Shown here one piece after another: positions 2,153 through 30,870 of a DNA stretch of 34,246 bases. The number at the start of each line of letters is the position of its first letter. Position 1 is the first letter of the stretch. Under the pieces are notes generated by a model that saw nothing but the letters and a program-made list of their open reading frames with translations, had not been told where the DNA came from and ran no database searches. The stretch covers positions 1 through 34,246 of the forward strand of contig CACDVH010000018.1 in the NCBI GenBank assembly GCA_902556205.1, read 5' to 3'. The translations under genes and the position numbers were made by a program. This stretch comes from an uncultured Gammaproteobacteria bacterium. GTDB lineage: Bacteria > Pseudomonadota > Gammaproteobacteria > PS1 > Pseudothioglobaceae.

Positions 2153-2158
2153 AAGATT

Positions 2159-3088: not shown

Positions 3089-3157
3089 TTAGGTGATTGT
3101 ATTTTAGGAAGTAAGAAAGTAAGTTAATTTGTTCAACAATAAAAAGGAGAGAGAAGT

Positions 3158-5727: not shown

Positions 5728-5832
5728 AACGTCACTCCTGAATAAGAATACATACATTTTACACTCTAATAGTTTATGTATTTGATAACGTGATAGTATT
5801 GAAATTCCTATGATTTTTTAATTAAGTTTCAT

Positions 5833-5851
5833 ATAATGGAACCTTGTACTG
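5833..5851 (+). promoter_or_regulatory. Putative IclR-type operator upstream of the galactoside binding-protein gene
   Basis: ATAATGGAAC, then CTT, then GTACTG. The core TGGAAC-N3-GTACTG is a weak pseudo-palindrome. The same ATAATGGAAC..TGTAC appears at 26867-26885 before the other sugar-binding-protein gene, and both copies start exactly 58 bases before the -10 box. Binding by the IclR protein at 18985-19773 is inferred from TGGAAC-like half sites and gene context. Confidence 0.6.
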
Positions 5852-5868
5852 ATAGTTGGACAAATTTA

Positions 5869-5896
5869 TTCACATGAATACATATTGATGTATACT
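5869..5896 (+). promoter_or_regulatory. Core promoter of the galactoside operon, with overlapping palindrome
   Basis: Candidate -35 TTCACA (5869-5874), 16-base spacer and -10 TATACT (5891-5896). A perfect inverted repeat, ATACAT-ATTG-ATGTAT (5878-5893), overlaps the -10 and could hold a repressor. The predicted transcript start is near 5903, giving a leader of about 84 bases. The -35 is imperfect, which would suit an activator bound at 5833-5851 (about -70 to -52). Confidence 0.6.
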
Positions 5897-5986
5897 TACC
5901 CTTGATTTGTCATATTTAAGTGAATTTCTTCACAAAAGTATGTAATCAAAAAGAAGTTTACTTTTTTAAAAAATAGGAGATAAAAA

Positions 5987-7225
5987 GTGAAAAAAATATT
6001 TAAAAATCAAATAGCACTTGCACTTGCCGGAATCTTGGCTGGTACATCTGCTGTTGCTGGAACTCTTGTCATTAATGGTGACACTTCAGATCCGGCACCA
6101 AAGGCTGCATTTCAGGCTGTTATAGATGGATTCGAAGCTGAAAACCCAGATGTTGATGTTGTTTATAACCTTTTTGATCATGAAGGATATAAGGCAGCAA
6201 TTCGAAACTTCCTTAGCGCTGATGCTCCAGACATTGCATTCTGGTATGCAGGAAATAGAATGGCTCCATTTGTTGAAGCTGGTTTATTTGCGCCAATTGA
6301 TGATGTTTGGGCTGACCAAGGTCTATACTCATTGATGGCTTCTTCAGCTCCAGGTATGACTATGGATGGCAAGAAATGGGGTATCCCTTATACATACTAC
6401 AACTGGGGTGTTTACTATCGTCAAGATATCTTTGAAGACCTAGGAATTTCAGTTCCAACAAATTGGGATGAGTTTATTGCTGCGGGTGAGACTTTGAAAG
6501 CTAACGGCATCACTCCAATCACAATTGGAACTAAGTATCTTTGGACTGCAGGTGGTGTATTTGACTACTTAAACCTTCGTACAAATGGCTATGACTTCCA
6601 TATGGCTCTAACAAGTGGTGACATCGCATGGACTGATGACAGAGTGCGCGCAACAATGGCGAACTATCAGCAGCTTATTGATGGCGGTTTCTTCCTTGAG
6701 AATCATGCTGCACTAAGCTGGCAAGAAGCTTTAGCTCCAATGGCTAATGGTGAGGCTGCAATGTATGTAATGGGTAACTTTGCTGTGGCTCCATTAAAGG
6801 AGCTAGGTTTAGATGATAGTTCACTTGGATTATTCCAATTCCCTGCAATTACTCCAGGAGTTCCAATGGCTGAAGAAGCGCCTACGGATACAATCCACTT
6901 AACTGCTGGCGCTAAAAACGTTGCTGATGCTAAGCGTTTCTTAGCTTACGCTGCCCGTCCTGACGTTCAGACAGCTTGGAATAAAGCGCTTGGACAACTA
7001 CCTACAAATGCTGGCGCAGGCGTAACAGATGACAAGTTCCTAAACCAAGCATTCAGCATGCTTAATAATGATGCACCTGGCGGTGTTGCTCAGTTCTATG
7101 ATCGTGACACTAAAGCAGAAATGGCCTCAATTGGTATGGAAGCTTTCCAAGAGTTCATGGTTAAGCCTGAGCGTTTAGAGAAAATTCTAGAGCGTCTAGA
7201 AAAAGCTCGTCAAAAACTTTATTAA
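5987..7225 (+). CDS. CUT1 sugar ABC transporter, periplasmic (galactoside) binding protein
   Basis: A 412-residue extracellular solute-binding protein of the SBP_bac_1 type. It starts at GTG with AGGAGA (5975-5980) six bases upstream. Signal peptide: MKKIFK, hydrophobic core, probable cleavage at SAVAG (about residue 25). The mature protein starts with a TLVINGDTSDPAPKAAFQAV strand-helix, followed by DAPDIAFWYAG, typical of oligosaccharide binders such as MalE/UgpB relatives, and is rich in aromatic residues (WGIPYTYYNWGVYYR) that would stack on sugar rings. It is the first gene of an operon encoding two permeases and both galactosidases, so an intact short galactoside is the inferred ligand. 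A hairpin just after the gene probably raises its expression over the permeases. Confidence 0.9.
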   Translation: MKKIFKNQIALALAGILAGTSAVAGTLVINGDTSDPAPKAAFQAVIDGFEAENPDVDVVYNLFDHEGYKAAIRNFLSADAPDIAFWYAGNRMAPFVEAGLFAPIDDVWADQGLYSLMASSAPGMTMDGKKWGIPYTYYNWGVYYRQDIFEDLGISVPTNWDEFIAAGETLKANGITPITIGTKYLWTAGGVFDYLNLRTNGYDFHMALTSGDIAWTDDRVRATMANYQQLIDGGFFLENHAALSWQEALAPMANGEAAMYVMGNFAVAPLKELGLDDSSLGLFQFPAITPGVPMAEEAPTDTIHLTAGAKNVADAKRFLAYAARPDVQTAWNKALGQLPTNAGAGVTDDKFLNQAFSMLNNDAPGGVAQFYDRDTKAEMASIGMEAFQEFMVKPERLEKILERLEKARQKLY

Positions 7226-7243
7226 TCAATAAGGTTTTACTAT

Positions 7244-7278
7244 GTCCCGTGTTCAAGTATTCTTGACACGGGACTTTT
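7244..7278 (+). terminator. Intercistronic hairpin (attenuator or mRNA stabiliser) after the binding-protein gene
   Basis: Stem GTCCCGTGT-(T)-CAAG with CTTGACACGGGAC (7244-7257 and 7262-7274, one bulged T), four-base loop, then TTTTATTTT. Placed between the abundant binding protein and the permeases, it probably works as a partial terminator or 3' end stabiliser. Confidence 0.8.
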
Positions 7279-7306
7279 ATTTTAAAATTTAGAATCTTAA
7301 GTAGGT

Positions 7307-8194
7307 ATGTATTCTTACTGGAAAAATAATCAACTCAAGATAGCGCCATGGATTTTTTTGGCTCCTGGCATATTTATGTTTTCTCTTTATGTTATTTTTC
7401 CTATCTTTCAATCGATTAATTTAAGTTTTTATCAGTGGGATGGTTTAGGTGCAAAAACCTATATCGGTGCTGAAAACTATATCGAACTTTTGGATGATGA
7501 GTACTTCATTGTTTCATTAAAAAATAATGTTATCTGGCTTGTTTTGTATCTCTTAGCAGTTCCAGCAGGACTTTTTGCAGCACTATTTCTTAATCAAACA
7601 GTCAGAGGGATACGGATTTATAAGTCTATATTTTTCTTTCCTTTTGTTATATCTCAAGTTGTAGTTGGTCTGGTTTTCAGCTGGTTTTATGACCCCTCTA
7701 ATGGGCTACTCAACATCATTTTAGAGTTTTTTGGTTTTGATACAATTGCCATTCTTGCTGAGGAAGATTATGTCACTTATGGCATTATTGCTGCAGGCTT
7801 ATGGCCTCAAACAGCTTACTGCATGATTCTATATTTAACTGGATTAAACTCAGTCGATCCAGAGCAAATTGAAGCAGGTCGAATCGACAATGCAAGAGGT
7901 TGGAGAATGCTATGGTATGTGATCTTGCCTCAACTCAAGCCTGCAACTTTCATTGCAGTCGTTGTAACTATTATTGGCGCTTTGAGATCCTTTGATCTCA
8001 TTGACATTATGACTGGGGGTGGTCCTTGGGGATCTAGTCGCGTGCTCGCCTATTATATGTACGAAAAAGCATTCTCAGAATATGGTTTCCGGATGGGTTA
8101 TGGTGCAGCTATTGCAGTCGTTCTATTATTAATAATGATGGTTTACATTGCAACAATTCTGTATAGACTTTATCAAGATGAGAAAGGTAGCTAA
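7307..8194 (+). CDS. CUT1 sugar ABC transporter permease, MalF/UgpA type
   Basis: A 295-residue inner membrane protein with six predicted spans. The cytoplasmic EAA loop that docks the ATPase is clear: EAGRIDNARGWRMLWYVILP near residues 190-210. The N-terminus, APWIFLAPGIFMFSLYVIFP, is the usual first span of this family, and TGGGPWGSS near the C-terminus is the conserved periplasmic motif of MalF-type subunits. It starts after the hairpin, 81 bases beyond the binding-protein stop, and is two bases from the next gene. No ATPase gene lies in this operon; the MalK-type protein at 17910-18968 is the likely partner. Confidence 0.92.
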   Translation: MYSYWKNNQLKIAPWIFLAPGIFMFSLYVIFPIFQSINLSFYQWDGLGAKTYIGAENYIELLDDEYFIVSLKNNVIWLVLYLLAVPAGLFAALFLNQTVRGIRIYKSIFFFPFVISQVVVGLVFSWFYDPSNGLLNIILEFFGFDTIAILAEEDYVTYGIIAAGLWPQTAYCMILYLTGLNSVDPEQIEAGRIDNARGWRMLWYVILPQLKPATFIAVVVTIIGALRSFDLIDIMTGGGPWGSSRVLAYYMYEKAFSEYGFRMGYGAAIAVVLLLIMMVYIATILYRLYQDEKGS

Positions 8195-8196
8195 TT

Positions 8197-9045
8197 ATGT
8201 TTCCTACGCCAATTGAAAGAACTAAACCATCGACCCAGCTCCTTTATAAGATAGCGCTTCCCATTTCAATTATTATTTGGTTGCTTCCACTCCTTGCGGT
8301 GGCTTTAACCTCAATTCGTTCTGGAGCAGATATCAATTCAGGAAACTACTGGGGAATGCCAACTTCAATTAACTTTATGGAGAACTATACGGCAGTTTTT
8401 ACGGATTCTCCGCTTGGTTATTACATACTCAATAGCTTCAAGATTACTATTCCTACTGTTATTGGTGCCATTGTGTTGTCAAGTCTTACTGGCTTTGCCT
8501 TGGGAGTTTATCGATTCAAGCTGAACCTGTTTGTGTTTTTTATGTTTGTCGCAGGAAACTTTATTCCCTTCCAGATACTTATGGTTCCAGTAAGAGACCT
8601 TTCACTTTCTCTTGGCTTATACAACTCTGTCTGGGGATTGGTGGTCTTTCATATTGCTTTTCAAACTGGCTTCTGTACCTTTTTTATGCGAAACTTTATA
8701 AGGGCATTGCCTTATGAGCTTATTGAGGCTGCTCGAGTTGAAGGCGTTTCAGAATTTAAGATTTTCTGGTACATTGTGGTTCCTTTAATGCGCCCAGCAA
8801 TGGCTGCTCTATCGGTATTAATTTTTACTTTCATTTGGAATGATTATTTTTGGGCTATTGTCTTGACTCAAGGTGCCGATGCTATGCCTGTGACTGCAGG
8901 ACTAAATTCACTTAATGGGCAATGGGTTTATAACCAGCATTTGGTTTCAGCCGGTTCAATCATTGCTGCGCTTCCTCCAGTTTTGATGTTTTTCCTAATG
9001 CAAAAACACTTTATTGCTGGTTTAACTCTGGGTGCTGTCAAATGA
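8197..9045 (+). CDS. CUT1 sugar ABC transporter permease, MalG/UgpE type
   Basis: A 282-residue inner membrane protein with six spans and the EAA loop EAARVEGVSEFKIFWYIVVP (about residues 178-197). The periplasmic segment between spans 1 and 2 is the normal length of about 45 residues, which makes it a useful comparison for the enlarged loop in the other MalG-type permease at 29434. It pairs with the upstream permease. Its stop overlaps the alpha-galactosidase start by four bases (ATGA), so transport and hydrolysis genes are translationally coupled. Confidence 0.92.
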   Translation: MFPTPIERTKPSTQLLYKIALPISIIIWLLPLLAVALTSIRSGADINSGNYWGMPTSINFMENYTAVFTDSPLGYYILNSFKITIPTVIGAIVLSSLTGFALGVYRFKLNLFVFFMFVAGNFIPFQILMVPVRDLSLSLGLYNSVWGLVVFHIAFQTGFCTFFMRNFIRALPYELIEAARVEGVSEFKIFWYIVVPLMRPAMAALSVLIFTFIWNDYFWAIVLTQGADAMPVTAGLNSLNGQWVYNQHLVSAGSIIAALPPVLMFFLMQKHFIAGLTLGAVK

Positions 9046-11126
9046 TAAAACAATGGCGCCTTGATACTAATAATCAATCATTGGTGTTGTCATCTTCAGG
9101 CAATCGATTGCCCTGTGTTATATATTGGGGCAAGAGTTTGCCAAGCCATGAAAGCCCAGATGAAATGATTGAGGCGTCAAAAAAAGACTGGGGAGACAAC
9201 CTCATAGATTTAGTCCCTGAGCTATCAATTTTGCCAGAACAGTCGGCTAACTTTTCCGGACAGTTAGGATCTAAGATGAGGGATATTAATGGTCAGTTAC
9301 TCTCTTCTAGTTTTGTTTTTCATTCTGACAAGGTCAGCGCTAACTCCCTAACTTTAATCTATAAGGACAAAGAACTAGGATTAACGTATACGGCTAAGAT
9401 TGACTCAATGGAAGAGCATGATGTATTTGCCTTAGAGGCCAAGATTGAAAGTAAGAGTCCAATCATTATGGAGTGGCTATCTGCACCCGTTATAGAGGCT
9501 TCACAAAATAGCAATGAGATCGTTGGCTATGGCGGTCACTGGGGTGGCGAATTTCGAAGACAGATAACGCCATGGGTCACAGGAACACACTTAAGAGAAT
9601 CAAGGGTAGGAACCACAAGCCACGCTCATTTTCCAGGGCTATTGATTCCTACTTCTGGAAGCTCTGAAAATTCAGGCTCCTGCTATGGTTTTCACTATGG
9701 CTGGTCTGGTGGTCATCGCATGGTTGCAGAGCAGCTCCAAGATGGACGAAAGCAAATCCAATTTGGGCACACAGAGAATAGTGAATTAAGTCCTGGCAAA
9801 AGCTTTGAAACTGCAAAACTTTATATTACTCATTCGGGAGATGGAGCAGGTGGTGTAGGTCGAACATTCAGAGCCTTTGTATCCAATTCTCTTGTTGATC
9901 TTCCAAAAGATTCTATTAGGCCTGTTCACTATAACTGTTGGGAGGCGGTTTATTTTGATCATAACATTGAAGAACTCAAAGAGATAGCAACCATAGCTGC
10001 TGAAATTGGTGCTGAAAGGTTTGTTCTAGATGATGGATGGTTCAAGGGAAGAGATACTGCCAAAACAAGTCTAGGAGACTGGTCTGTTGACGACCAAAAA
10101 TATCCAGAAGGTATGCATCCATTAGTGAAGCATATTCATTCCACGGGTATGACATTTGGCCTATGGTTTGAGCCTGAGATGGTGAGTCCAGATAGTGATT
10201 TATTTCGCTCTCATCCAGAGTGGATTATGGGAGAAGAAAGCCAAGCTCTAGGAAGAGGGCAGTACGTTTTAGATATTTCTATAAAAGCAGTACAGGAATA
10301 TCTTTTTGAAAGTATCGACTCAATATTGAATGAGTATCCAATTGAATATGTCAAATGGGATCATAATAGAGTTCTGCCTTATCCAGACGCATCACAAACG
10401 AGAGCTCTATACAGTCTTTTGGGCAGGTTAAGAGAAGCCCATCCAGGCCTAGAAATTGAATCCTGTTCTTCGGGCGGTGGAAGGATCGATTATGGGATAT
10501 TAGAGCATACTCAAAGAGTCTGGTTGTCCGATAGTAATGATGCTTTAGAAAGATTACGTATTCAGCATGAGGCGCTTATTTGGTTACCGCTGTCCGTAAC
10601 CGGAAGCCATGTGGGTCCAAAAGTCTGCCATACATCTGGGCGAGAGTTGTCAATGTCCTTCAGAGCATGGGTAGCAGCTCAAAGACATATGGGTTTTGAG
10701 ATGGATCCAAGAGAATTGTCTTCTAAAGATAAAAAACTTCTTAAATCTGTAACATTATGGTGGAAGCAGAATCGAGAATGGATGATGAGTGCAAATATTC
10801 TCAGGTTGCCTTGCATAGATAAAAGTGTTATTGCCGAAATACAAGTAAATTCTAAAGGTGATCATTTTGTCGTTTTTGCAGGGCAAAATGCTGCTTCAGA
10901 ACTTAGTTCATCTGCACCATTAGTGCTAGCTGGGCTTGACTCTAAGTCGATGTATAATATTTCTCTTCTCAACACAAAAGAAATCAAATCATTAGGTAAG
11001 TCAGAGGAAGGCTTATTGACTAAAAAATTAATGTTAAGTGGACAATTTCTAATGACACAAGGTCTTCAATTACCTAAAGTTTTTCCAGCAAATATGATGG
11101 TTATAGAGGGAGACAAGGCAGCATGA
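9042..11126 (+). CDS. GH36 alpha-galactosidase
   Basis: A 694-residue cytoplasmic enzyme (no signal peptide) that removes terminal alpha-galactose from imported galactosides. The sequence shows the GH36 pattern: an N-terminal beta-supersandwich, then the barrel with RFVLDDGWFKGRD, VKWDHNR with the nucleophile Asp440, ESCSSGGGRID, and SDSND with probable acid/base Asp497. Length matches the bacterial GH36 tetrameric enzymes of about 700-730 residues. It overlaps the permease and the dehydratase genes by four bases each. With the GH42 enzyme encoded downstream, the cell could take apart mixed alpha/beta galactosides such as digalactosylglycerol; melibiose, raffinose-type sugars or floridoside are alternatives. 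Confidence 0.95.
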   Translation: MIKQWRLDTNNQSLVLSSSGNRLPCVIYWGKSLPSHESPDEMIEASKKDWGDNLIDLVPELSILPEQSANFSGQLGSKMRDINGQLLSSSFVFHSDKVSANSLTLIYKDKELGLTYTAKIDSMEEHDVFALEAKIESKSPIIMEWLSAPVIEASQNSNEIVGYGGHWGGEFRRQITPWVTGTHLRESRVGTTSHAHFPGLLIPTSGSSENSGSCYGFHYGWSGGHRMVAEQLQDGRKQIQFGHTENSELSPGKSFETAKLYITHSGDGAGGVGRTFRAFVSNSLVDLPKDSIRPVHYNCWEAVYFDHNIEELKEIATIAAEIGAERFVLDDGWFKGRDTAKTSLGDWSVDDQKYPEGMHPLVKHIHSTGMTFGLWFEPEMVSPDSDLFRSHPEWIMGEESQALGRGQYVLDISIKAVQEYLFESIDSILNEYPIEYVKWDHNRVLPYPDASQTRALYSLLGRLREAHPGLEIESCSSGGGRIDYGILEHTQRVWLSDSNDALERLRIQHEALIWLPLSVTGSHVGPKVCHTSGRELSMSFRAWVAAQRHMGFEMDPRELSSKDKKLLKSVTLWWKQNREWMMSANILRLPCIDKSVIAEIQVNSKGDHFVVFAGQNAASELSSSAPLVLAGLDSKSMYNISLLNTKEIKSLGKSEEGLLTKKLMLSGQFLMTQGLQLPKVFPANMMVIEGDKAA

Positions 11127-12838
11127 GTAAATCAAATAACCGGCGATCTTCAAACTGGTACGGAAAAATGGATAAAGATGGCTTCATTCATCGAAGCTGG
11201 ATGAAAAGCCAAGGGCTTCCAGAACATGTGTTTGATGGACGACCAATTATTGGTATTTGTAATACTTGGTCAGAGCTTACTCCATGTAATGCAGGCTTGA
11301 AGAATCTTGCTGAGGGAGTCAAGAGGGGTGTTTGGGAGGCTGGAGGAGTCCCACTTGAGTTTCCTGTAATGTCTCTAGGCGAAACTCAAATGAAGCCAAC
11401 TGCAATGCTTTTTCGAAACCTTTTGTCAATGGATGTTGAGGAGAGTATTCGGGCTTATGGAATGGATGGAGTTGTTCTTTTGGGTGGCTGTGATAAAACG
11501 ACCCCAGGCCAGCTTATGGGTGCAGCTAGTGTTGATTTACCAACTATTGTCGTCTCCGCAGGCCCAATGCTTAATGGAAAATATAAAGGCCAAGACATAG
11601 GCTCTGGAACAGATGTCTGGCGATTCTCAGAAGAGGTTAGGGCTGGAGATATGACTCTAAAAGAGTTCATGACAGCTGAAACTGGTATGAGTAGATCCTC
11701 GGGCGTTTGCATGACTATGGGGACGGCTTCAACTATGGCAAGTCTGGTAGAGGGGATGGGGCTCAGTTTACCAACAAATGCAACTCTGCCTGCAGTTGAT
11801 GCAAGACGAATGACCCTTGCTCATTTGTCAGGAAAAAGAATTGTAGAGATGGTTGAGGAAGAGCTCAATTTATCCAAAGTCATTACTAAAGAAAGTTTTC
11901 AGAATGCGATCACTCTGAACAGTGCAATTGGTGGCTCAACAAATTCAGTTATTCACTTGCTAGCCTTAGCCGGGAGATCAGAAATTGATCTGAATCTGGA
12001 GGACTTTGATAAAGCTGGAGACATTCCATTGCTGGTCAACTGTATGCCTTCTGGAGATTTCTTGATGGAGGATTTTTGTTATGCCGGCGGAATTCCAGCT
12101 GTTATGGATCAAATTAAGGGCTTCATCAAGCCAGCAAACACAATATTAAATAAAGATATAACGCATTACTTCAATGAGGCAGAGATTCTGAATGAAGATG
12201 TCATTAGGACTATTGATAAACCGCTTAAGCCTTCTGCTGGATTGAAAGTGCTCAGGGGTAATCTTGCACCGAATGGAGCTATTATTAAACCTGCTGCAGC
12301 TTCCGATGATCTATTAAATCATGAGGGAGTTGCTTATGTTTTTGAAGATATTGAGGATTTAAAAGAAAATATTGACAAACCTGACTTGCCAGTTACCAAA
12401 GATACCATTCTTGTTTTAAAAGGATGCGGGCCCAAGGGCTACCCAGGAATGCCAGAGGTTGGCAATATGCCAATACCCAAAGTGCTCGTTGAGCAAGGCG
12501 TAAGAGATATGATTCGTATTTCTGATGCAAGGATGTCAGGAACAGCATTTGGAACTATAGTTCTGCATGTTGCTCCAGAGGCCAACGTTGGTGGTCCAAT
12601 CTCGATTGTTGAGACTGGTGATCGAATTCGAGTTGACGCCCATAATGGAGTGCTAGAGCTTTTAGTTTCTGACTCGGAAATTAAGGAACGTCTCAAATCT
12701 AAAAAACAACCAGAAATGAACTATTCGCGGGGATACGCAAAGCTCTATATTGAAACGGTTTTGCAGGCTAATAAAGGTGCAGACTTAGACTTTTTGGTGG
12801 GTAAAGATACCCGCCTTCCTAACCGAGAATCACACTAA
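11123..12838 (+). CDS. IlvD/Edd-family sugar-acid dehydratase (probable D-galactonate dehydratase)
   Basis: A 571-residue Fe-S and Mg-dependent dehydratase, expected to convert D-galactonate to 2-keto-3-deoxygalactonate. Three conserved cysteines positioned as in the [2Fe-2S] pentonate/hexonate dehydratases are present: Cys55 (SELTPCN), Cys123 (GGCDKTTPG) and Cys196 (GVCMTMG). It is closer to L-arabonate/D-xylonate/galactonate dehydratases than to IlvD itself, judging from the N-terminus (RSSNWYGKMDKDGFIHRSWMK) and from the neighbourhood of a galactonate-type kinase and aldolase. E. coli uses an unrelated enolase-family enzyme (DgoD) for this step. The start overlaps the GH36 stop. Alternative substrates: fuconate, arabonate, xylonate. 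Confidence 0.88.
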   Translation: MSKSNNRRSSNWYGKMDKDGFIHRSWMKSQGLPEHVFDGRPIIGICNTWSELTPCNAGLKNLAEGVKRGVWEAGGVPLEFPVMSLGETQMKPTAMLFRNLLSMDVEESIRAYGMDGVVLLGGCDKTTPGQLMGAASVDLPTIVVSAGPMLNGKYKGQDIGSGTDVWRFSEEVRAGDMTLKEFMTAETGMSRSSGVCMTMGTASTMASLVEGMGLSLPTNATLPAVDARRMTLAHLSGKRIVEMVEEELNLSKVITKESFQNAITLNSAIGGSTNSVIHLLALAGRSEIDLNLEDFDKAGDIPLLVNCMPSGDFLMEDFCYAGGIPAVMDQIKGFIKPANTILNKDITHYFNEAEILNEDVIRTIDKPLKPSAGLKVLRGNLAPNGAIIKPAAASDDLLNHEGVAYVFEDIEDLKENIDKPDLPVTKDTILVLKGCGPKGYPGMPEVGNMPIPKVLVEQGVRDMIRISDARMSGTAFGTIVLHVAPEANVGGPISIVETGDRIRVDAHNGVLELLVSDSEIKERLKSKKQPEMNYSRGYAKLYIETVLQANKGADLDFLVGKDTRLPNRESH

Positions 12839-13608: not shown

Positions 13609-13615
13609 TAGGACG

Positions 13616-14527: not shown

Positions 14528-14533
14528 GGCTTT

Positions 14534-15999: not shown

Positions 16000-16006
16000 G
16001 ATTACT

Positions 16007-17908: not shown

Positions 17909-17909
17909 C

Positions 17910-18968: not shown

Positions 18969-18984
18969 AACAAGTAATATTTAA

Positions 18985-19773: not shown

Positions 19774-19962
19774 AACTTATTGGATCATATGTTTTAGTTA
19801 GAATGACTCTATATAATCAGACTTTTAAGCCTATTTTTAAATAAATTTTAACAGATAATGTATACTACATTTTATTAAGTTTTCAATAGTAGAACATAGT
19901 CTCATTATTTGGAAAATCCTTTTGAAGACTTAAATATTACTAAAAATCAAAAAAATAAAAAA
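19774..19962. promoter_or_regulatory. Divergent control region between iclR and glycerol kinase
   Basis: About 190 A/T-rich bases. ATGTATACT (19858-19866) repeats the -10 element of both sugar promoters and probably drives glycerol kinase, although no good -35 is visible. Downstream of it, TAGAACATAGTCTCA (19890-19904) matches nine of 15 positions of the TGGAACGCTGTACCA site at 26871-26885, so it is a possible weak regulator site. No iclR promoter boxes could be assigned with confidence. Confidence 0.4.
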
Positions 19963-21462
19963 ATGTCAGAAATTACAAAATATATATTATCAATTGATCA
20001 AGGAACAACCTCATCTAGAGGCGTTATATTTGATGAAAACTATGAAATTGTTTCAATAGGGCAAAGAGAGTTTACGCAATTTTTTCCTGATTCTGGATGG
20101 GTTGAGCATGACCCCGAGGAAATTTGGACTTCAACACTTGAGAGCTGTAAGAGTGCAATAAAAGAATCGAAAATTAAGCCAAATCAAATAGAAGCAATAG
20201 GCATCACCAATCAAAGAGAGACAACAGTTGTGTGGGACAAAGAAACTGGCAAGTCAATTTACAATGCCATTGTTTGGCAAGATCGAAGAACTTCTGATCA
20301 GTGTCAAAGTTTAAAAGATCTTGGTCACGAGAATCTGGTGACCCAAAAAACAGGACTTCTTCTCGATCCTTATTTTTGTGCTACTAAAATTGCCTGGATT
20401 CTCGATAATGTTGAGGGTGCTCGTGAAAAAGCTAACCAAGGCCAACTTCTTTTTGGAACAATTGATAGCTTTCTTATGTGGCGATTAAGCAATAAGAAAG
20501 TGCACTCAACTGACGCCACTAATGCTTGTCGTACCCTTTTATATAATATTCATGATGGCTGCTGGGATCAAGAGTTGCTTGACCTATTCAATGTGCCTGC
20601 ATCAATGCTTCCTGCAGTTTATGATAATGCTGCTGACTTTGGGAAAGTTGATGAATCTATCTTTGGCTCAGAAATAACAATCGCAGCATCAATTGGTGAT
20701 CAGCCTTCTGCTCTTGTTGGTCAGGCATGTTTTCAACCGGGTATGGTGAAGTCCACTTATGGTACCGGCTGTTTTGTTCTAATCAATACTGGCTTTAAGC
20801 CAGTGAAATCTAATAATAAATTACTAACCACCCTGGCTTTCCAAGTGAGTGGTAAAACTTGTTACGCTCTTGAAGGGTCAATTTTTATTGCTGGAGCTGC
20901 AGTTCAATGGCTGCGCGATGGTCTAAAATTCATTGATTCAGCTGAGCAATCTGAAACACTTGCTAAGCAGGCTGATGAGTCTCAACATGTTTATCTTGTT
21001 CCTGCGTTTGTAGGATTAGGTGCCCCTTATTGGGATCCCGATTGTCGGGGTGCGCTTTTTGGAATGACGCGCAATACAGGTCCAGCTGAAATCACCAAGG
21101 CTGCACTTGAGTCTGTCTGCTATCAAACTTCTGATCTATTAAATGCAATTTCAAAAGACTTGGGCGAAAGTAAGCTCAGTGCTATTAGAGTGGATGGAGG
21201 AATGGCCGCTTCAAACTGGACAATGCAGATGCTTTCTGATCTAGTTGAACTTCCAGTTGATAGGCCAAAGAATCTTGAAACGACTGCATTAGGGGCGGCA
21301 TATTTAGCTGGTATGCAGGTTGGTTTTTATCCGTCGATGGATGAATTTTCTGAGACTTGGCAGTCAGAGAGTCAATTTAATTCAAAGATGACTAATGACC
21401 AAAGACAAAGGAAGCTCTCTGGATGGGAAGATGCAGTTAAGAGAACGCTCTCTGATAGCTAG
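19963..21462 (+). CDS. glpK: Glycerol kinase
   Basis: A 499-residue FGGY-family kinase making glycerol-3-phosphate. The N-terminus [13 protein letters not shown] (residues 8-20), [10 protein letters not shown] substrate loop, [12 protein letters not shown] and [18 protein letters not shown] segments are typical of GlpK. A TTG at 19909 would add 18 polar residues (rich in N and K) that have no counterpart in the family; I therefore took the ATG at 19963, though neither start has a Shine-Dalgarno sequence. No glycerol facilitator or glycerol-3-phosphate dehydrogenase adjoins it, so its glycerol may come from inside the cell by glycoside hydrolysis. It ends on a CTAG shared with the convergent gene. 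Confidence 0.95.
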
Positions 21463-22385
21463 CCCCGAAGAAAGTTAATTGTCTTTTCTGCAATGAATTG
21501 ACTAACCCTGACGTTAGACTCGGTTGTCACTCCAGAATTATGAGGAGTTAGAATGCAGTTCATCGAATAAGAGATGTGTTTGTAAAAATCCTCTTCAACA
21601 GGTTCAGAGCTGAATACATCAAGAGCAAAGCCACTGATGATTTTTTCACTGTAAGCCTGAAGAAGGTCTTTCTCATTGACAATTGAGCCCCTAGAAGAAT
21701 TAATAATAATAGGGTTTTGTTTCATTAAAGTAAATGAACGAGCATTGATTAAATCTCTTGTTTGGTCAGTTAGTGGAAGGTGAATGGAAATGACATCAGA
21801 GAGGGCAAAGAGATCCTCTTGTTTCACGAGTGATACCTTGTGTTTAGAAGCCTCAGATTCAGGAACAAAAGGGTCATAGGCAATTACCTTGGCACCAAAT
21901 ACTTGAGCTAACCGTGATACCTTTTTTCCAATTACACCAAAACCAAGAAGCCCAAGGGTTTTTCCACCCAGCTCTCTTGACTCTATAGAAGTTCTTGGCC
22001 ATTGACCAGAGGATGTTCCATGATGCGCAATGGGTATATTTTTAAGCAAAGACAGCGAACAAGTGATTACATATTCAGCAACTGAGTCTGCATTCATGCC
22101 TGTTGCGGGCTGAACAAAAATACCATTATTTGAGCAATAATCCGTGTCAATATTGTCTAGACCAACTCCTAGTCGTCCAATAAAAGTTAATTGTTTAGCC
22201 TTTGATAGTAGGTCTTCAGTGAGCTGAGTTTTATTTCGAACTATCACAGCATTAGTATTCGCAATTAAAGAGCTGAGTTTGGCTTGATTTTCATGAAGAC
22301 AAGTGTCATAAGTTACATCAAAATTTTCAGACATTTTGTCAACACTGTCTTGCTCCATGAATTCTGTTATCAATACTTTTTTCAT
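21459..22385 (-). CDS. SerA-like D-2-hydroxyacid dehydrogenase
   Basis: A 308-residue NAD-dependent dehydrogenase of the phosphoglycerate dehydrogenase superfamily, without the C-terminal ACT domain of biosynthetic SerA. The NAD motif GLLGFGVIG begins near residue 144; the catalytic set is the arginine in NSSRGSI, the glutamate in DVFSSEP and the histidine in LTPHNSG. It is the last gene of the minus-strand sugar operon, three bases after the kinase. In this context it might oxidise or reduce a three-carbon 2-hydroxyacid produced after the aldolase step; (S)-sulfolactate dehydrogenase (SlcC) is a known member of this superfamily, so a sulfolactate role is possible but unproven. Glyoxylate/hydroxypyruvate reduction is another option. 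Confidence 0.85.
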
Positions 22386-22388
22386 TAT

Positions 22389-23294
22389 TTATATTTGTTT
22401 AGAGGGTTTAATTTGTTCAGAAAATTCTAAGACTTCTTCATAGCTGGGCAAAGTGCTGATTCCGCCTGTCCGAGTGCACTTCAGTGATGCAGTAGCAGTT
22501 GCCAGTTCGATCGCTTCTTGAGTAGTTTTGTTTTCAATAAATTTAGCAAAAGCGCCATGAAAGACATCTCCAGCTCCATTAGTTTCTTTGACATCAATTT
22601 GGGGAGAGCTACAATGAAAAATATTCCCATTCTCTATCCAGTAAACACCTTTAGATCCAAGAGTAACCGCATAAAATTTTTGGTTTTTTTGATAAAGACT
22701 CCTCAAAGCATTAATAATTGGCATATTGTTTGTAAATCGATTTAAACCAATTTCCGAAAAGACAGGATGTGAGGCTGAATTGACTACTTCATCAACTAGA
22801 TTACTGTTACTAAAATTATCAAGATCTACTACACAATTAATCTGATGTTTTTTTGACTGAATGGCAACAAAATGAGCCGCCTCAATCCAGTTTGTATCTA
22901 CAAGATAAGATTGGGTGCTTAAAAATTCAAATGCCGGCATTTTTTTTTCATTACTGAGCTTTTTTTCGTTATATACCGCTAGCATCCTCTCGCCCTTACT
23001 ATCTTCAAAGATATGACTTTGTGAAGATTGGGCTTTGTTCACAGTAATGGATTTTTCAGTAGAAATGCCATTTTCAAGAAACTCTGATTTCAAATACTCA
23101 GCATCATCATCACTACCAAAACGGCCAATAAATTCAGCCTCACCGCCTAAAGACTTAATAGCAAAACTGGCAACTGGAGCAGGCCCACCTAGTCGCGTCT
23201 CAAGGCCGCTTGCTACGAGTTTAATTGGCTTGTCAGGAAAACGATCAATCTTGATCACCCTGTCAAGAAAAATAGGTCCAACGCATGTAATCAT
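22389..23294 (-). CDS. PfkB-family sugar kinase, YihV (sulfofructose kinase)-like
   Basis: A 301-residue ribokinase-fold kinase. I chose the ATG at 23294, giving an MITCVGPIFLDR start, over the in-frame GTG at 23348 that overlaps the preceding gene and adds 18 unusual residues. Motifs: GGPAPVASFA (36-45), SSQS..EDSKGER (90-103), FSEIGLNRFT, NGAGDVFHG (239-247, base Asp243) and LKCTRTGG (271-278). Compared with my memory of E. coli YihV, the SSQS..D.KGER, FSE.GL.R and LKCTR.GG blocks correspond, making a ketose-1-kinase role likely. Lys25 aligns with a YihV sulfonate-contacting lysine (Lys27), but Val107 and Asn135 replace the other two contacts (Asn109, Arg138), so the substrate may not be sulfofructose. 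Confidence 0.85.
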   Translation of the reverse strand: MITCVGPIFLDRVIKIDRFPDKPIKLVASGLETRLGGPAPVASFAIKSLGGEAEFIGRFGSDDDAEYLKSEFLENGISTEKSITVNKAQSSQSHIFEDSKGERMLAVYNEKKLSNEKKMPAFEFLSTQSYLVDTNWIEAAHFVAIQSKKHQINCVVDLDNFSNSNLVDEVVNSASHPVFSEIGLNRFTNNMPIINALRSLYQKNQKFYAVTLGSKGVYWIENGNIFHCSSPQIDVKETNGAGDVFHGAFAKFIENKTTQEAIELATATASLKCTRTGGISTLPSYEEVLEFSEQIKPSKQI

Positions 23295-23331
23295 TTCAGT
23301 TAATTTTAATGAAAATATGAATCTATTGTTG

Positions 23332-24420
23332 CTAGAGGTTGAATTCACTCATTTGAACAATTCGACCTTCCTTAATTGATTGTTCTGCAGCCTCTCCTAT
23401 TGCAACAGCAATTAACCCATCATTAAGTGAAACCTCTGGTTTGGTGCTGTTGCGAATAGCATTAATAAAAGAGGTGTGTTCATAGTATGTGGATCCGTGA
23501 TGATGTCCTGCATCATGTATTTTAGGGTCTACACTTATGTTTTCTCTGAGCGCTGTTTGGTCTTCCCTCATTCCAATTCTAATGTCAGAGTTTGTAATTC
23601 CAGAGGCGTTCGATGGGACCTCAGTCTCAATCTTTCCAAGTGAGCCGACCGCACATAGCTCCTCTTGATACTCAGAGTTTTCTGCAAACATACACAAGTC
23701 TAGGAAGGCTCTAACCCCGTTCTCAAAGTCAACAATGACAAATGCATTATCTAGTATATCAGGCGTCATTCCATCGTAGGTCTCATCAAGATGATTTACA
23801 TCTTGATTACCGCTTGCATAAACCTTAACAGGCTCGCTCTGAGCAATCAATCTCATCAAATCAAAAAAATGACAGCATTTTTCAACTAATGTTCCTCCAG
23901 TTTTTATTGCAAAGCGATTCCAGTCATCTACCTTGTGAAGGAACGGAAAGCGATGCTCTCGGATTGAAAGCATTTTTAAATCACCGATTGTATTATTATG
24001 GATCTCGTTAATCAGCCTTTGGACAGGAGGCATATAACGATACTCCATTGCAGTCCATATAACACCAGGATAGTTTTCTGCTAGTTTTTCAAATTCTTGA
24101 CAGTCTTTGACGGTGGTGCAGAGAGGTTTTTCAATCAAAAGATGAACTTCTGATTTCATTACATCTTTGAGAACATCGATATGAGTGAAGTTGGGAGTTG
24201 CTATGATAAATGCATCAGCAATGTTTGCATCAATTAGGTCATTGTAATCATGAAAAATAGCAACTTCATCATTAAGAAGTTCAAGACTTTCTTGAATTGA
24301 TTTCTCACTAGTATCACATAATGCAACCACCTCAGCATCATCAATTATTCCAATGTTTAAGATGTGTTCTTGACCCATACACCCAGCACCGATAATCGCA
24401 TATTTTATCTTTTCAGTCAT
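23332..24420 (-). CDS. Gfo/Idh/MocA-family NAD(P)-dependent protein
   Basis: A 362-residue two-domain protein: Rossmann fold with IIGAGCMG (9-16), the EKP motif at Glu97-Lys98-Pro99, and a substrate domain with GGTLVEKCCHFFDL (175-188). The usual aspartate before the catalytic histidine is replaced by Glu180, with His184 and Asp187 retained, and two adjacent cysteines (182-183) are odd for the family. Members oxidise sugars or cyclitols; some (GH109, GH188 types) use transient NAD oxidation to hydrolyse glycosides, including sulfoquinovosides. As the operon has no other glycosidase, that role is attractive. It overlaps the isomerase by four bases (ATGA). A simple sugar dehydrogenase is the conservative reading. 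Confidence 0.85.
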   Translation of the reverse strand: MTEKIKYAIIGAGCMGQEHILNIGIIDDAEVVALCDTSEKSIQESLELLNDEVAIFHDYNDLIDANIADAFIIATPNFTHIDVLKDVMKSEVHLLIEKPLCTTVKDCQEFEKLAENYPGVIWTAMEYRYMPPVQRLINEIHNNTIGDLKMLSIREHRFPFLHKVDDWNRFAIKTGGTLVEKCCHFFDLMRLIAQSEPVKVYASGNQDVNHLDETYDGMTPDILDNAFVIVDFENGVRAFLDLCMFAENSEYQEELCAVGSLGKIETEVPSNASGITNSDIRIGMREDQTALRENISVDPKIHDAGHHHGSTYYEHTSFINAIRNSTKPEVSLNDGLIAVAIGEAAEQSIKEGRIVQMSEFNL

Positions 24421-25793
24421 AGAGTGTAAGTCGGTATGTCCATTTGCTGGCCAAAATGGATAAGTTTGTCAGAAATATCACCATAAGTAAATGCAACATG
24501 GTGCTCTAAACCGCCCTTGAACATTTGTTCTAATTTATGGGCGCTATTTTCACCTAGATTGATAACTCCAGAGGTCCCAGAGAATGAATTAGGACGATCA
24601 AGAACTTGGCCTTTCATCACAAAAAATTGAAGCCTGCCTCTCGCTTTAGAAACTCTAAAAATGGTAATTTCTCCCTCTTTCAGGCTAAAGTCATGAAGAA
24701 GTGGCTTTTTTCTATTTGAGTGAATTCCAGACTTAGCAGTGCCTTCTTTTGCCATACTAATAGGAGCTAATCCGCAATGCCAAAAAACTAGAGAATTATC
24801 AGATTTATCAACGTCAACAATATCTACTAAAAGCGAAGGGTTGTTATTCATTTGATTAAGAATGTTGCAACTTATTCCGCCCAAAACATCGGCTTCACAA
24901 GCGCAGCTTACTTTCTTTTCATTCATCATAGCCATTGGGCCACATGAGGCGCAGCCATATTCAGTAAATGTCTCTGGCCAACAGCGAATTGCAAATGCGT
25001 CTAGGTTATGCTTATCTTTGAGGTTTTCAAGTCCATGAAAGATAGAAAGACTTTTGTCAAATTCTTCTTGAACTAGCTCTTCTGTTCCAGCTAGGTAGCT
25101 TGATACGGTACTTTTAGTTTTAACAATTGTCTCTACTTCAATATCTTTGGCTTCGTCAAATAAATCTTCCAGCTCCAGATCAACTAGAGAAACATTGAGT
25201 TTGGAAGTCACCTCATTTGAGTCATAGTCACAGGTGTCAAATCCTTCAGGCCTGGTTCCAATAATTCCAATTGTTTGCTTGTCAATAGAATAGTCAAAGT
25301 CAGCATTACTATTAGTAATACTCGCTATATCCCATTCTATTTTCTCACTGCCACTTTGACCTTCGATAAAGTTAGAGAAAGAGATTTCGTTAGCTTTATC
25401 ATCTTCTTCCATTATTACAAAATCAGGAGTAATGTCATTTTTAATTAATGAATGCATTGCTAGATTAAGCCCACAAATTGAGTTTAATCTGAGTCTTCCT
25501 CCTGTTCTAGGCTCTGGAAAAGAAACGATACATATTGGTTTTTGAATCGATTTAGCAAAGTTTAAGAGAAACTTAGCATCAGTAAAGGTTGTTTGAAAGA
25601 GAAAAATCTTCTCAAAATCATTACTATTAAAAAATGATAAAGCGCTATTTGCATCTTCATCATTCGTTATGAGATTTTCAAAGCCAATTGCATCTGGCGA
25701 TAATGACAATAGAAGTGATTTTGCAATCTTAAACTTAGATTCAGCGTACTCCACATCAAAAGTCTCTCTCGCAAGGGCTAAATATCCAATCAT
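24417..25793 (-). CDS. L-fucose/L-arabinose isomerase-like protein
   Basis: A 458-residue cytoplasmic protein resembling the COG2407 L-fucose isomerase-like group: an N-terminal alpha/beta part (1-270), then RCWPETFTEYGC..CGPMAMMN, CACEADVLGGISC and, in the C-terminal domain, VFWHCGLAP and KGQVLDRPNSFSGT. Glu274, Glu300 and Asp302 are candidate metal ligands, with His431/His432 near the C-terminus. Five cysteines cluster at 281, 284, 297, 299 and 309, which could bind a metal. It probably interconverts an aldose and ketose ahead of the kinase. It overlaps both neighbours by four bases. Its substrate is not known; whether it matches any described sulfoquinovose isomerase I cannot tell. Confidence 0.75.
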   Translation of the reverse strand: MIGYLALARETFDVEYAESKFKIAKSLLLSLSPDAIGFENLITNDEDANSALSFFNSNDFEKIFLFQTTFTDAKFLLNFAKSIQKPICIVSFPEPRTGGRLRLNSICGLNLAMHSLIKNDITPDFVIMEEDDKANEISFSNFIEGQSGSEKIEWDIASITNSNADFDYSIDKQTIGIIGTRPEGFDTCDYDSNEVTSKLNVSLVDLELEDLFDEAKDIEVETIVKTKSTVSSYLAGTEELVQEEFDKSLSIFHGLENLKDKHNLDAFAIRCWPETFTEYGCASCGPMAMMNEKKVSCACEADVLGGISCNILNQMNNNPSLLVDIVDVDKSDNSLVFWHCGLAPISMAKEGTAKSGIHSNRKKPLLHDFSLKEGEITIFRVSKARGRLQFFVMKGQVLDRPNSFSGTSGVINLGENSAHKLEQMFKGGLEHHVAFTYGDISDKLIHFGQQMDIPTYTL

Positions 25794-26812
25794 TCAAAAC
25801 CTCCAAAATCTTTAGTGAACTTCTCAGGATTATCAATTTTAAATCCATTATTAAAAAAAGTATCAAGAGATTGAGCATTTCTTGCAGTTAGTTCATTGAG
25901 CTTCTTTACATAAGAAACAGAAGCATTTTTAAGGCCTTCTTCTACTTTCTCGATATTTGGATAGTTTTTAAAGGCATCTAGCCAAATAGTTCTTCCTGCA
26001 AGATAACCTGAAGCTCCATTAATGTATGCAAGCTCTAAACACTTATAAAAGGAATCTTTATCCATTCCTGAGGATAGTACAACCCATGGTTTGTCATTAG
26101 TTGCTTCTGCAAGATCACTAAATGCTTTTTCAGTGCTATTAGTTATGTCACCCTCAAGCATACTGCTGTCGACAGGACTCTCAAGCTTAAAGATATCAAC
26201 CTTATATTTATCTTTTGCGAATTCTTTAACACTTTCAATGACATGCTGAGTTTTTTTCTGTTTTTGCTCTTGATATTCTGTGGTGTGATTTTCATCATCT
26301 TTGAATGGGTATACAAGAAGTTCAAGAAGAAAAGGGATACTATATTTTTCGCACTCTTCGCCTATTTTTTTTACATATTCTTGTTGATGCTCAATAGATT
26401 CCTCATCTGCATCAGGCCTATACCAGGCGAGAACTTTAACTGCATCACCACCAGCTTTTTTTATTTTTTCCACACTCCAGTTATCTATATTTCTTGAATA
26501 ACGGCCCTTTTGAGCTTCAATAAAACTATGCTCTTCAAGAGTTATAACAAGACCTTTTGATTGATTAAATCTAAGAATATTTGATAATGAATAGTGAGGA
26601 TCCATTAAGATTGCTGTAGCAAGTTTAGACAAGTGCTGTGTAATTAATCTCTTACATTCAACAACTTGAGAATATGTATAGCTTTGTCCAGTTGAGTCAG
26701 TGATGAGATTAAAAATTGGTGGCCTTTGGTCGACTGCTAGCATATGAAAATGATTTTTATCAGTACAAAGTTTTTTTAAATGTATAAGTTTTCCTAGGTT
26801 GTTTTTTTTCAT
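25790..26812 (-). CDS. Class I aldolase of the LacD/YihT superfamily
   Basis: A 340-residue barrel aldolase, first gene of the minus-strand operon. HMLAVDQR (23-30) near the N-terminus, AVKVLAWYRPD (124-134), the Schiff-base lysine Lys209 in DIFKLESPVD and ASGYLAGRTIW (267-277) with the phosphate-site arginine are typical of tagatose-1,6-bisphosphate aldolase and sulfofructose-1-phosphate aldolase relatives. It would cleave a ketose-1-phosphate made by the PfkB kinase into dihydroxyacetone phosphate and an aldehyde. It is longer than YihT (about 290), with extra sequence at the C-terminus ending FGGFE. A tagatose-type substrate, or use of a differently substituted hexulose, cannot be excluded. 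Confidence 0.85.
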   Translation of the reverse strand: MKKNNLGKLIHLKKLCTDKNHFHMLAVDQRPPIFNLITDSTGQSYTYSQVVECKRLITQHLSKLATAILMDPHYSLSNILRFNQSKGLVITLEEHSFIEAQKGRYSRNIDNWSVEKIKKAGGDAVKVLAWYRPDADEESIEHQQEYVKKIGEECEKYSIPFLLELLVYPFKDDENHTTEYQEQKQKKTQHVIESVKEFAKDKYKVDIFKLESPVDSSMLEGDITNSTEKAFSDLAEATNDKPWVVLSSGMDKDSFYKCLELAYINGASGYLAGRTIWLDAFKNYPNIEKVEEGLKNASVSYVKKLNELTARNAQSLDTFFNNGFKIDNPEKFTKDFGGFE

Positions 26813-26866
26813 TATTTAGGATTATTGTTAAAAAAAAGAATAAAGCTTTTGACACTCTAGTTTTAC

Positions 26867-26885
26867 ATAATGGAACGCTGTACCA
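26867..26885 (+). promoter_or_regulatory. Putative IclR-type operator upstream of the second binding-protein gene
   Basis: ATAATGGAAC-GCT-GTACCA. The core TGGAAC-N3-GTACCA is a good pseudo-palindrome (five of six arm positions pair). It shares ATAATGGAAC and TGTAC with the site at 5833-5851 and has the same distance to its -10 box. It could also control the divergent aldolase operon. Confidence 0.62.
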
Positions 26886-26901
26886 AAATCTAGTTTTTAT
26901 T

Positions 26902-26930
26902 TTACTGCTATATATGAATTCATGTATACT
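26902..26930 (+). promoter_or_regulatory. Core promoter of the second sugar transporter operon
   Basis: The -10 TATACT (26925-26930) is preceded by ATG, as in the galactoside promoter; the -35 region is poor (TTACTG, 26902-26907, 17-base spacer). TGAATTCA (26915-26922) forms the centre of an imperfect palindrome overlapping the -10, in the same columns as the perfect palindrome at 5878-5893. Confidence 0.55.
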
Positions 26931-28297: not shown

Positions 28298-28330
28298 ACA
28301 ATATTCAGTTATACTAAAGTTCTAAACTTT

Positions 28331-28360
28331 AAGGCCGTCTCTTGAGGCGGCCTTAATTTT
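28331..28360 (+). terminator. Intercistronic hairpin after the second binding-protein gene
   Basis: Stem AAGGCCGTCT / AGGCGGCCTT (28331-28340 and 28345-28354, one G-T pair), four-base loop, then AATTTTATTT. It mirrors the hairpin at 7244 in position and probably favours expression of the binding protein over the permeases. Confidence 0.85.
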
Positions 28361-28381
28361 ATTTAAAATTCAATCCTGATA

Positions 28382-30867: not shown

Positions 30868-30870
30868 ATT

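Follow-up and report, generated by a model that had tools for sequence, protein, structure and literature searches.

Copies of a tandem IclR-type operator precede galactoside and putative sulfoquinovose operons and a glycerol kinase gene in an uncultured member of the Pseudothioglobaceae

Genes of the locus

The window analyzed here is a stretch of 34,246 nucleotides (contig CACDVH010000018.1 of assembly GCA_902556205.1, forward strand; G+C content 39%) from an uncultured gammaproteobacterium of the family Pseudothioglobaceae, whose genome (G000) comprises 1.65 Mb and is 92% complete. Its close relatives with names are Candidatus Thioglobus, Pseudothioglobus and bacteria of the PS1 clade and the SUP05 cluster, and the genus is probably Pseudothioglobus or an ally close to it. 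It carries two sugar operons and, between them, a gene for a regulator of the IclR family, and our subject is a DNA element, the putative operator of this regulator, found upstream of both operons and of iclR itself. The galactoside operon is headed by the gene for solute-binding protein 1 (SBP1; 5987-7225, + strand), which is followed by the two permeases of transporter 1 (7307-8194 and 8197-9045, +; together 5987..9045). Genes within 9042..17908 (+) encode a glycoside hydrolase family 36 (GH36) alpha-galactosidase, an IlvD/Edd-type dehydratase, a short-chain dehydrogenase, a 2-keto-3-deoxygalactonokinase, a KDPG/KHG-type aldolase, an SMP-30 lactonase and a GH42 beta-galactosidase. Judged by their family names, these enzymes would be compatible with an oxidative breakdown of galactose whose last step is a 2-keto-3-deoxy-6-phosphogalactonate (KDPGal)-type aldolase.

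The IclR-family regulator, which we propose as the binder of all four operators described below, is encoded at 18985..19773 on the - strand. It passed both Pfam cut-offs (IclR_C, 1.8e-40, 138.8 bits against 24; HTH_IclR, 5.9e-06, 26.4 bits against 22), and its helix-turn-helix stretch PKATLYRLLQTL was kept with few changes among eight aligned IclR proteins. Downstream of iclR lies a gene for a UgpC/MalK-type ABC ATPase (17910..18968, -), which may serve transporter 1 because the operon of this transporter has no ATPase gene of its own. On the other side, glpK (19963..21462, +) encodes a glycerol kinase (TIGR01311, 700.5 bits; cut-off 590.35).

Beyond glpK, homology to solved or named relatives points to a likely sulfoquinovose pathway operon (21459..26812, -). 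It encodes an aldolase of the sulfofructose-phosphate (SFP) type (25790-26812, -; SFP/tagatose-bisphosphate aldolase match, 2e-82 to 8tnf and 2.4e-17 to a named SFP aldolase), an isomerase (24417-25793, -), an SqgA-like NAD-dependent sulfoquinovosidase (23332-24420, -; 9.4e-114 to PDB 8qc2), a PfkB protein resembling sulfofructose kinase (22389-23348, -; 1.8e-43) and a 2-hydroxyacid dehydrogenase (21459-22385, -). The isomerase scored 302 bits with the sulfoquinovose isomerase model, under the cut-off of 700, and had no solved relatives at 1e-5. The second transporter operon (27047..31887, +) starts with the gene for solute-binding protein 2 (SBP2; 27047-28297, +) and includes two permeases and one ATPase. 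No solved relatives of SBP2 were found at 1e-10, and its neighbors suggest that the substrate is likely sulfoquinovose or sulfoquinovosyl-glycerol. What a preliminary description of the window had called a second sugar is therefore most likely sulfoquinovose.

A 37-bp operator with two palindromes

The preliminary description had reported an operator and a TATACT hexamer at identical spacing in front of both sugar operons. The two 17-mers do lie where it placed them (ATAATGGAACCTTGTAC starting at 5833 and ATAATGGAACGCTGTAC at 26867), TATACT follows at +58 in both cases (starting at 5891 and 26925, inside ATGTATACT), and the two 64-bp stretches align without a gap, with identity at 39 of 64 positions. 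None of 300,000 pairs of random non-overlapping 64-bp segments of the window reached 39 identities, the best pair having 35. Identity was concentrated at the two ends of the stretches; of the 38 bases that separate the 17-mer from ATGTATACT, 15 matched. The exact 17-mer pattern occurred twice in the window, compared with no match in 100 shuffles, and twice in the whole genome, compared with none for the reversed control. The original observation is thus confirmed, and it proved to be larger than first described, since the 17-mer forms the middle of a 37-bp operator.

This operator emerged from an alignment of upstream regions from two sets of sequences, a genus set of 29 genomes and a distant set of 30 loci (L091-L120) from other genera, mostly alphaproteobacterial. 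The IclR proteins of the distant set were 56-62% identical (41% in L120), and L121, with a 35% match, was left out. The aligned regions share a 37-bp element with four half-sites, GTTYCA-N5-TGRAAC-N3-GTNYYA-N5-TGRAMA, that is, two neighboring GTTYCA-N5-TGRAAC palindromes whose centers are 20 bp apart. The 20-bp center distance was seen in the SBP1 site and in most of 28 aligned distant sites, and the last spacer at iclR in the genus is 4, one base shorter. We built two models of the operator, R1 from only the 28 distinct sites of the 30 distant loci and R2 from 35 genus sites.

Operator 1, upstream of the galactoside operon (5826..5862, +), reads GTTTCA-TATAA-TGGAAC-CTT-GTACTG-ATAGT-TGGACA and scored 27.3 bits with R2 and 16.4 bits with the independent R1; it includes a GTTYC..GRAAC palindrome with 11 inner bases, GTTTCATATAATGGAAC, at 5826-5842. 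Operator 2 (26860..26896, +) lies between the sulfoquinovose enzyme operon and the transporter operon and reads GTTTTA-CATAA-TGGAAC-GCT-GTACCA-AAATC-TAGTTT. It has only three good half-sites, the fourth being poor, and its score of 23.4 bits was obtained with R2, to whose training set it belonged. Operator 3, absent from the preliminary description, is situated between iclR and glpK (19880..19915, -); in the iclR direction it reads TTTCCA-AATAA-TGAGAC-TAT-GTTCTA-CTAT-TGAAAA, with scores of 20.4 bits (R1) and 27.4 bits (R2).

Searches with short cores were uninformative. The 17-mer with up to three mismatches gave 45 matches in G000 compared with 32 for the control, with no excess in most other genomes listed, and the 15-bp palindrome with up to two mismatches was rarer than its reversed control (87 per strand compared with 177). 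Since such scans lie near or under the control, only the long operator is informative. ATGTATACT was also considered as a regulon-specific element. It has three copies in the window, compared with 0.35 expected, the third (19858..19866, +) being upstream of the operator of glpK; this candidate was ruled out, as genome-wide matches numbered 14 compared with 10 for the control and the element is kept at SBP2 where the operator is absent.

Co-occurrence of the operator and iclR

An IclR protein with 83-100% identity is encoded in 15 of the 29 genus genomes; a sixteenth match (27% identity, another family) was not used. The operator was present upstream of iclR in all 15 of these loci. In the distant set an ABC ATPase gene follows iclR in 30/30 loci, iclR is divergent from SBP1 in 29/30, and the same galactoside genes are found wherever the sequence extends to them. 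The operator lies between iclR and the galactoside operon in every one of the 30 loci, with 0-7 mismatches to the consensus drawn from those loci, compared with 9-15 at the next best place. Its presence at iclR beside the galactoside operon in 30 distant loci ties the site to this IclR.

We then scanned genomes with both models, scoring in each genome 150 first-look candidates (150 of 2936 in G000). With R1, the sites at ugpB (20.6 bits), iclR/glpK (20.4 bits) and the galactoside operon (16.4 bits, and 14.7 bits on the other strand) came out on top in G000, and the next best match had 12.5 bits. With R2, 37 matches of at least 18.5 bits were obtained in the 29 genomes, the next match being at 16.7 bits. 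Of these 37, 35 were the sites used for training, and the other two, on which the model had not been trained, precede ugpB. Many unrelated matches in the genome, which the preliminary description had named as a result that would refute its proposal, were thus not found for the full operator among the candidates scored.

Fourteen genomes of the genus are at least 89% complete. Eight of these encode iclR, and every one of the eight carries a site with an E value of 1.2e-6 or lower; none of the six without iclR has a site below E 0.014 (Fisher 0.0003, with no correction for kinship). In four of the six, SBP1 and SBP2 are missing as well. G016 (89% complete) keeps SBP1 and SBP2 with no detected iclR and no operator, only 112 bp being readable upstream of SBP1. 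Taken together, these results lend good support to control of both sugar operons by the IclR protein encoded at 18985-19773. The preliminary description had gone further and proposed co-activation by this protein; the co-regulation it implies is strongly supported by the 15/15 genus and 30/30 distant loci, and activation is only moderately so.

Promoter architecture

The promoter predicted for the galactoside operon (5869..5896, +) consists of TTCACA (5869-5874), a 16-bp spacer and TATACT (5891-5896), and that predicted for the second transporter operon (26901..26930, +) of TTTACT (26901-26906), an 18-bp spacer and TATACT (26925-26930); both TATACT hexamers lie in ATGTATACT, which is identical at SBP1 in 7/7 rows chosen as non-redundant from 13. 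Both -35 regions had been called weak. This is so for the second, which matches the consensus at 4/6 positions, and not for the first, which matches at 5/6. When positions within these regions were drawn at random, the best hexamer had at least four matches in 1440 of 5000 trials and at least five in 246 of 5000, so that only the second -35 is near chance.

The distance from the operator to TATACT, counted from the start of ATARTGG, was nearly constant. It was 58-60 in all 22 operator-bearing transporter promoters (58 in 14, 59 in seven and 60 in one), with 13/13 at SBP1 (58 in 11, 59 and 60 in one each), 7/7 at SBP2 (58 in two, 59 in five) and 2/2 at ugpB. The distance from the operator to the start codon varies, from 135 to 183 at SBP1 and SBP2 and being 345 (G000) and 233 at ugpB. 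A search for the operator and the promoter as a joint module, with a tolerance of 40-44 bases, gave 21 matches in the 29 genomes and none with the control, and all matches were located before SBP1 (13), SBP2 (6) or ugpB (2).

If TATACT is the -10 element, the operator ends just upstream of the -35 box in 22/22 of these promoters. With TATACT taken as -12 to -7, it extends from about -77 to -41; the position of -70 to -52 given earlier does hold a site, of which it covers a part only. The best -35 hexamer contained TTG in none of the 22. Its forms were TTCACA with a 16-bp spacer at 8/13 SBP1 promoters, TTTACA with a 16-bp spacer at ugpB in G000, and TTTACT with an 18-bp spacer at 6/7 operator-bearing SBP2 promoters. 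The near-constant spacing, together with -35 boxes lacking a G, argues for activation. The class I activator position that had been suggested agrees with an operator upstream of -35 at a spacing of 58-60, and disagrees with the repressor geometry found at glpK and in distant loci. Because of that geometry we hold activation by IclR at the transporter promoters to be only somewhat the likelier mode.

Operators at glpK and ugpBAEC

In all 15 genus loci, TATACT starts 23-25 bp ahead of the 30-bp operator core, and glpK, or the gene that stands there instead, starts 6-68 bp past it. In the window we took the start of glpK to be the ATG 47 bp past the operator core; the list of open reading frames gives a TTG at 19909. 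A different gene adjoins iclR in G009, G022 and G008, with glpK beyond it, and by its first residues, judged by eye, this gene looks like a glycerol-3-phosphate dehydrogenase. GylR of Streptomyces is a member of the IclR family, and the position of the operator would fit GylR-like control of glycerol kinase and of the regulator itself in 15/15 loci, in three of which it precedes another gene.

A fourth operator, outside the window (G000:C22:9682-9711), was the best match in G000 (31.6 bits, R2) and precedes ugpBAEC, the genes of a transporter of the glycerol-3-phosphate type. UgpB and UgpA scored above the equivalog cut-offs (511.5 against 411 bits and 390.5 against 335 bits). Both genomes with ugpB carry the operator there, with TATACT at 58 (G000) and 59. 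The ugpB leader (L162, about 9560-9700) also contains an inverted repeat, GATTAGATATTT...AAATATCTAATC, after a T run; in the G010 stretch compared with it, no such repeat was seen. Close to ugpBAEC (L162, 11585-17729) there are genes resembling those of phosphate transport and response (pst, phoU and phoB type, by eye), and ugp may therefore respond to phosphate as well. No Rfam family reached the gathering threshold in the window or in L162.

Loss of the operator at SBP2 and a DeoR-type gene

According to the preliminary description, its proposal would be refuted if close relatives had retained the genes and lost the sites. Such loss is rare at SBP1 (1/14, G016) and common at SBP2, where 7/14 loci are without a strong site. 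SBP2 is encoded in 15 genomes, and G025, which has no sequence upstream of it, was not counted. Two of the seven operators at SBP2 are weak (G028, 18.7 bits; G008, 18.5 bits), and a degenerate one is found in G017 (12.9 bits), where TATACT also lies at 59.

A DeoR/GlpR-like gene is located beside the SBP2 transporter gene in 6/14 loci, none of which has a strong operator, and is absent from all seven operator-bearing loci; G016 has neither. For this mutual exclusion the two-sided Fisher value was 0.005, with no correction for kinship. Where the aldolase gene is in view, it lies between the DeoR-type gene and the transporter. The DeoR proteins of these relatives scored best with the DeoR/GlpR model, under its cut-off. 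The promoter TTGACA-17-TATATT was present in 5/5 readable SBP2 promoters of the other kind (G006, G002, G012 and G011, with the DeoR gene, and G016), and it is followed by an inverted repeat, TTTTGRTAT..ATATCGAA, which is likely to be the operator of the DeoR-like protein. With up to three mismatches this repeat had seven matches in the 29 genomes, four of them at SBP2. The repeat, downstream of TTGACA/TATATT promoters next to the DeoR-like gene, was noticed in L036, L042, L045, L048, L178, L180, L181 and L183. G014 and G017, in which the DeoR gene is present, keep ATGTATACT at SBP2. On the SBP2 tree four changes of the operator label are needed, at least three being forced by well-supported branches, and no significant clustering of the label was seen (141 of 500 shuffles gave a value as low).

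In G016 (L030, L047), SBP1 and SBP2 share a near-identical upstream stretch, TATATTTCTATTAAGTTTTGATATGATATGAAAAATATCGAACTTTGTA, with an SBP1-like ribosome site and start ahead of the native SBP2 promoter; this points either to copying of the promoter or to an effect of assembly at a contig end. SBP1 and GH42 of G008 (L032, L033, L088) are each in two pieces and the IclR match begins at residue 17, reflecting sequencing frameshifts or real decay. Two genomes that have the galactoside operon carry a distinct DeoR-type gene of 37% identity (L085 and L089, about 3265-4026); it adjoins an ABC ATPase gene, on the side where the window has the sulfoquinovose genes. Elsewhere in the window, a PnrA-like ABC operon occupies its start (63-4240), and an amidohydrolase of the 8-oxoguanine-deaminase type is encoded after the sulfoquinovose transporter genes (31935-33299).

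Discussion

The operator, its distribution, its spacing to the promoter and the gene families around it are read directly from the sequences. The explanation that we favor, with some confidence, is that the IclR protein encoded at 18985-19773 controls four units, activating at the transporters and repressing at glpK. Both sites at the sugar operons would then be copies of its operator, and the units would be the galactoside operon, the sulfoquinovose transporter, ugpBAEC on another contig and the divergent iclR/glpK pair; the divergent sulfoquinovose enzyme operon is perhaps also controlled. Tandem palindromes with a center distance of 20 bp would fit two dimers on one face of the DNA. At the transporter promoters, bound IclR, at about -77 to -41 beside a -35 box without G, would most likely activate, and at glpK, where the operator falls ahead of the start codon at about +7 to +43, the bound protein would most likely repress. 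We infer binding, activation or repression, substrates and effector alike from sequence. The likeliest effector would be glycerol or glycerol-3-phosphate, because what the predicted substrates have in common is glycerol or a product linked to it; glycerol would be released when digalactosyl-glycerol, galactosylglycerol or sulfoquinovosyl-glycerol is cleaved.

Several observations weigh against this explanation. The SBP2 site was missed in the genome scan with R1 and scored 5.3 bits in the window. Sites occur without a detected iclR in G018 and G020 (70 and 65% complete), and G002, G006 and G011 encode iclR and have no strong operator at SBP2. In G014, G016 and G017, SBP2 has no operator or a degenerate one and still keeps ATGTATACT, and the SBP2 promoter therefore does not strictly need the operator. 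The glycerol theme is weakened by the absence of glpK near iclR in the 30 distant loci, and by the presence of ugpB in only 2/29 genus genomes. As to the mode of action, the geometry at glpK or its substitute is that of a repressor in 15/15 loci. In 11 of the 30 distant loci, inspected by eye, the operator mostly preceded the SBP1 start by some 20-60 bp, and in 10 (not in L120) it lay behind a TTGAC-type -35 box, again a repressor geometry. Finally, the sequence directly upstream of the SBP1 operator contains a possible promoter, YTGANA-17-NTAAGT, like that of the distant relatives; were it used, the SBP1 operator would be a repressor site too.

The last three observations are the core of the strongest alternative, in which the regulon and its binder are the same and IclR acts everywhere as a repressor, either by hindering the polymerase from upstream or at promoters that lie upstream of the operators, until an inducer releases it. 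It would also agree with GylR, a repressor that, according to PMC9732521, glycerol-3-phosphate or dihydroxyacetone phosphate (DHAP) releases. We regard this alternative as a real possibility, clearly less probable than the combination of activation and repression. Its upstream promoter (TTGAAA-17-TTAAGT at SBP1) was not seen by eye at SBP2 or ugpB, and at SBP1 it is less conserved (0.71-0.76) than the downstream promoter (0.88-1.0), with a far-upstream background of 0.64, and is accordingly the less likely main promoter. These values refer to 7 of 13 SBP1 rows, with G006, G025, G024 and G008 (near copies) and G011 and G028 (spacing 59 and 60) left out. A near-constant spacing with no overlap of -35 or -10 would be unusual for simple repression, and the IclR kind of SBP2 promoter lacks the consensus -35 box that the other kind has.

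Binding of the sites by a different regulator, with iclR merely nearby, would account for G018 and G020, for the three iclR genomes without a strong SBP2 site and for SBP2 loci elsewhere with another local regulator gene. It is very improbable, given that the site accompanies iclR across genera of two classes, that strong sites are missing from the six near-complete genomes without iclR, and that the motif is of the type described for the IclR family in PMC8222616. Least probable is chance, or a copied promoter left by duplication without regulatory meaning: short AT-rich cores with mismatches are common here and shared origin could explain part of the 39/64 identity, but the pattern was absent from the shuffles, the stretch between operator and -10 has diverged while its ends and spacing hold, and conservation across the genus already makes chance unlikely.

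Of the lipids that phototrophs make, sulfolipid and galactolipids belong to the most abundant, and little is known of how the use of lipid headgroups is coupled in ocean bacteria. The fragments proposed to be imported and digested are sugar-glycerol and phosphate-glycerol of the kind shed by photosynthetic membranes. On the favored explanation, a marine lineage would handle glycerol compounds that bear galactose, sulfoquinovose or phosphate as a single class under one regulator. Less likely than not, though worth considering, is a fuller account in which a single IclR commands a regulon for headgroups of phototroph membranes, covering galactolipid ((di)galactosyl-glycerol), sulfolipid (sulfoquinovosyl-glycerol) and phospholipid (glycerophosphate) compounds and the glycerol released from them. 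In this account the operator, which is in repressor position in alphaproteobacterial relatives, would have become a fixed-distance activator site at the transporters, and the sulfoquinovose operon would have alternated repeatedly between control by IclR and a DeoR-type regulator of its own. With its four operators of two geometries and a natural DeoR-type swap, this would be a compact system in which to follow a change between repression and activation.

An operator upstream of -35 is typical of activators of the MhpR/PcaU kind, and the site of MhpR is centered near -58. MhpR, PcaU and PobR are listed as IclR-family activators, PcaU requiring an extra half-site, in PMC8222616. The present regulator is of the same family, and its operator is upstream of -35 in the 22 transporter promoters, if TATACT is the -10 element. 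Unlike it, those three regulate the use of aromatic compounds and are assigned a GTNCG-type motif in the same paper. For the family in general, operators of GTT-11-AAC and three-box types, with tandem centers 18-22 bp apart, are described there (Suvorova and Gelfand, 2021; PMC8222616). The operator reported here is similar in its half-sites, their alternating direction and the tandem palindromes, with 20 bp between centers. It differs in that 'galact' has no occurrence in the main text of that paper and the group was not seen there, though the supplementary tables may list it.

According to PMC9732521, GylR controls the glycerol kinase genes and itself and has glycerol-3-phosphate and DHAP as effectors. 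Control of a glycerol kinase and of the regulator itself would be common to both systems. Unlike GylR, which is reported to repress one glp operon, the IclR protein of the window would include sugar and sulfosugar transporters among its targets, with sites upstream of their promoters.

In Escherichia coli the sulfoquinovose genes are regulated by CsqR (YihW), of the DeoR family, as noted in PMC10991401. This resembles the DeoR-family gene beside the sulfoquinovose transporter gene in 6/14 genus loci, and differs from the window, which has no DeoR gene and an IclR operator in its place. Gene clusters of the sulfo-Embden-Meyerhof-Parnas pathway with the GH188 enzyme SqgA, as outlined in PMC10755693 and PMC13372026, have homologues here of SqgA, sulfofructose kinase and SFP aldolase. 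They differ from the present operon in the isomerase, which here stays under the cut-off of the sulfoquinovose isomerase model.

Titles and abstracts of the openly licensed PMC papers listed on sulfoquinovose and IclR, galactolipid, galactosylglycerol, glycerol kinase, Thioglobus, marine ABC transporters and floridoside yielded no such regulon, and in a word search of a review of sulfoquinovose catabolism (PMC12890257) IclR, DeoR, CsqR and regulator had no occurrences. An IclR regulon with a tandem operator is of a known kind. As far as the searched literature shows, its gene content, the two geometries of its operators and the swap with a DeoR-type regulator are new.

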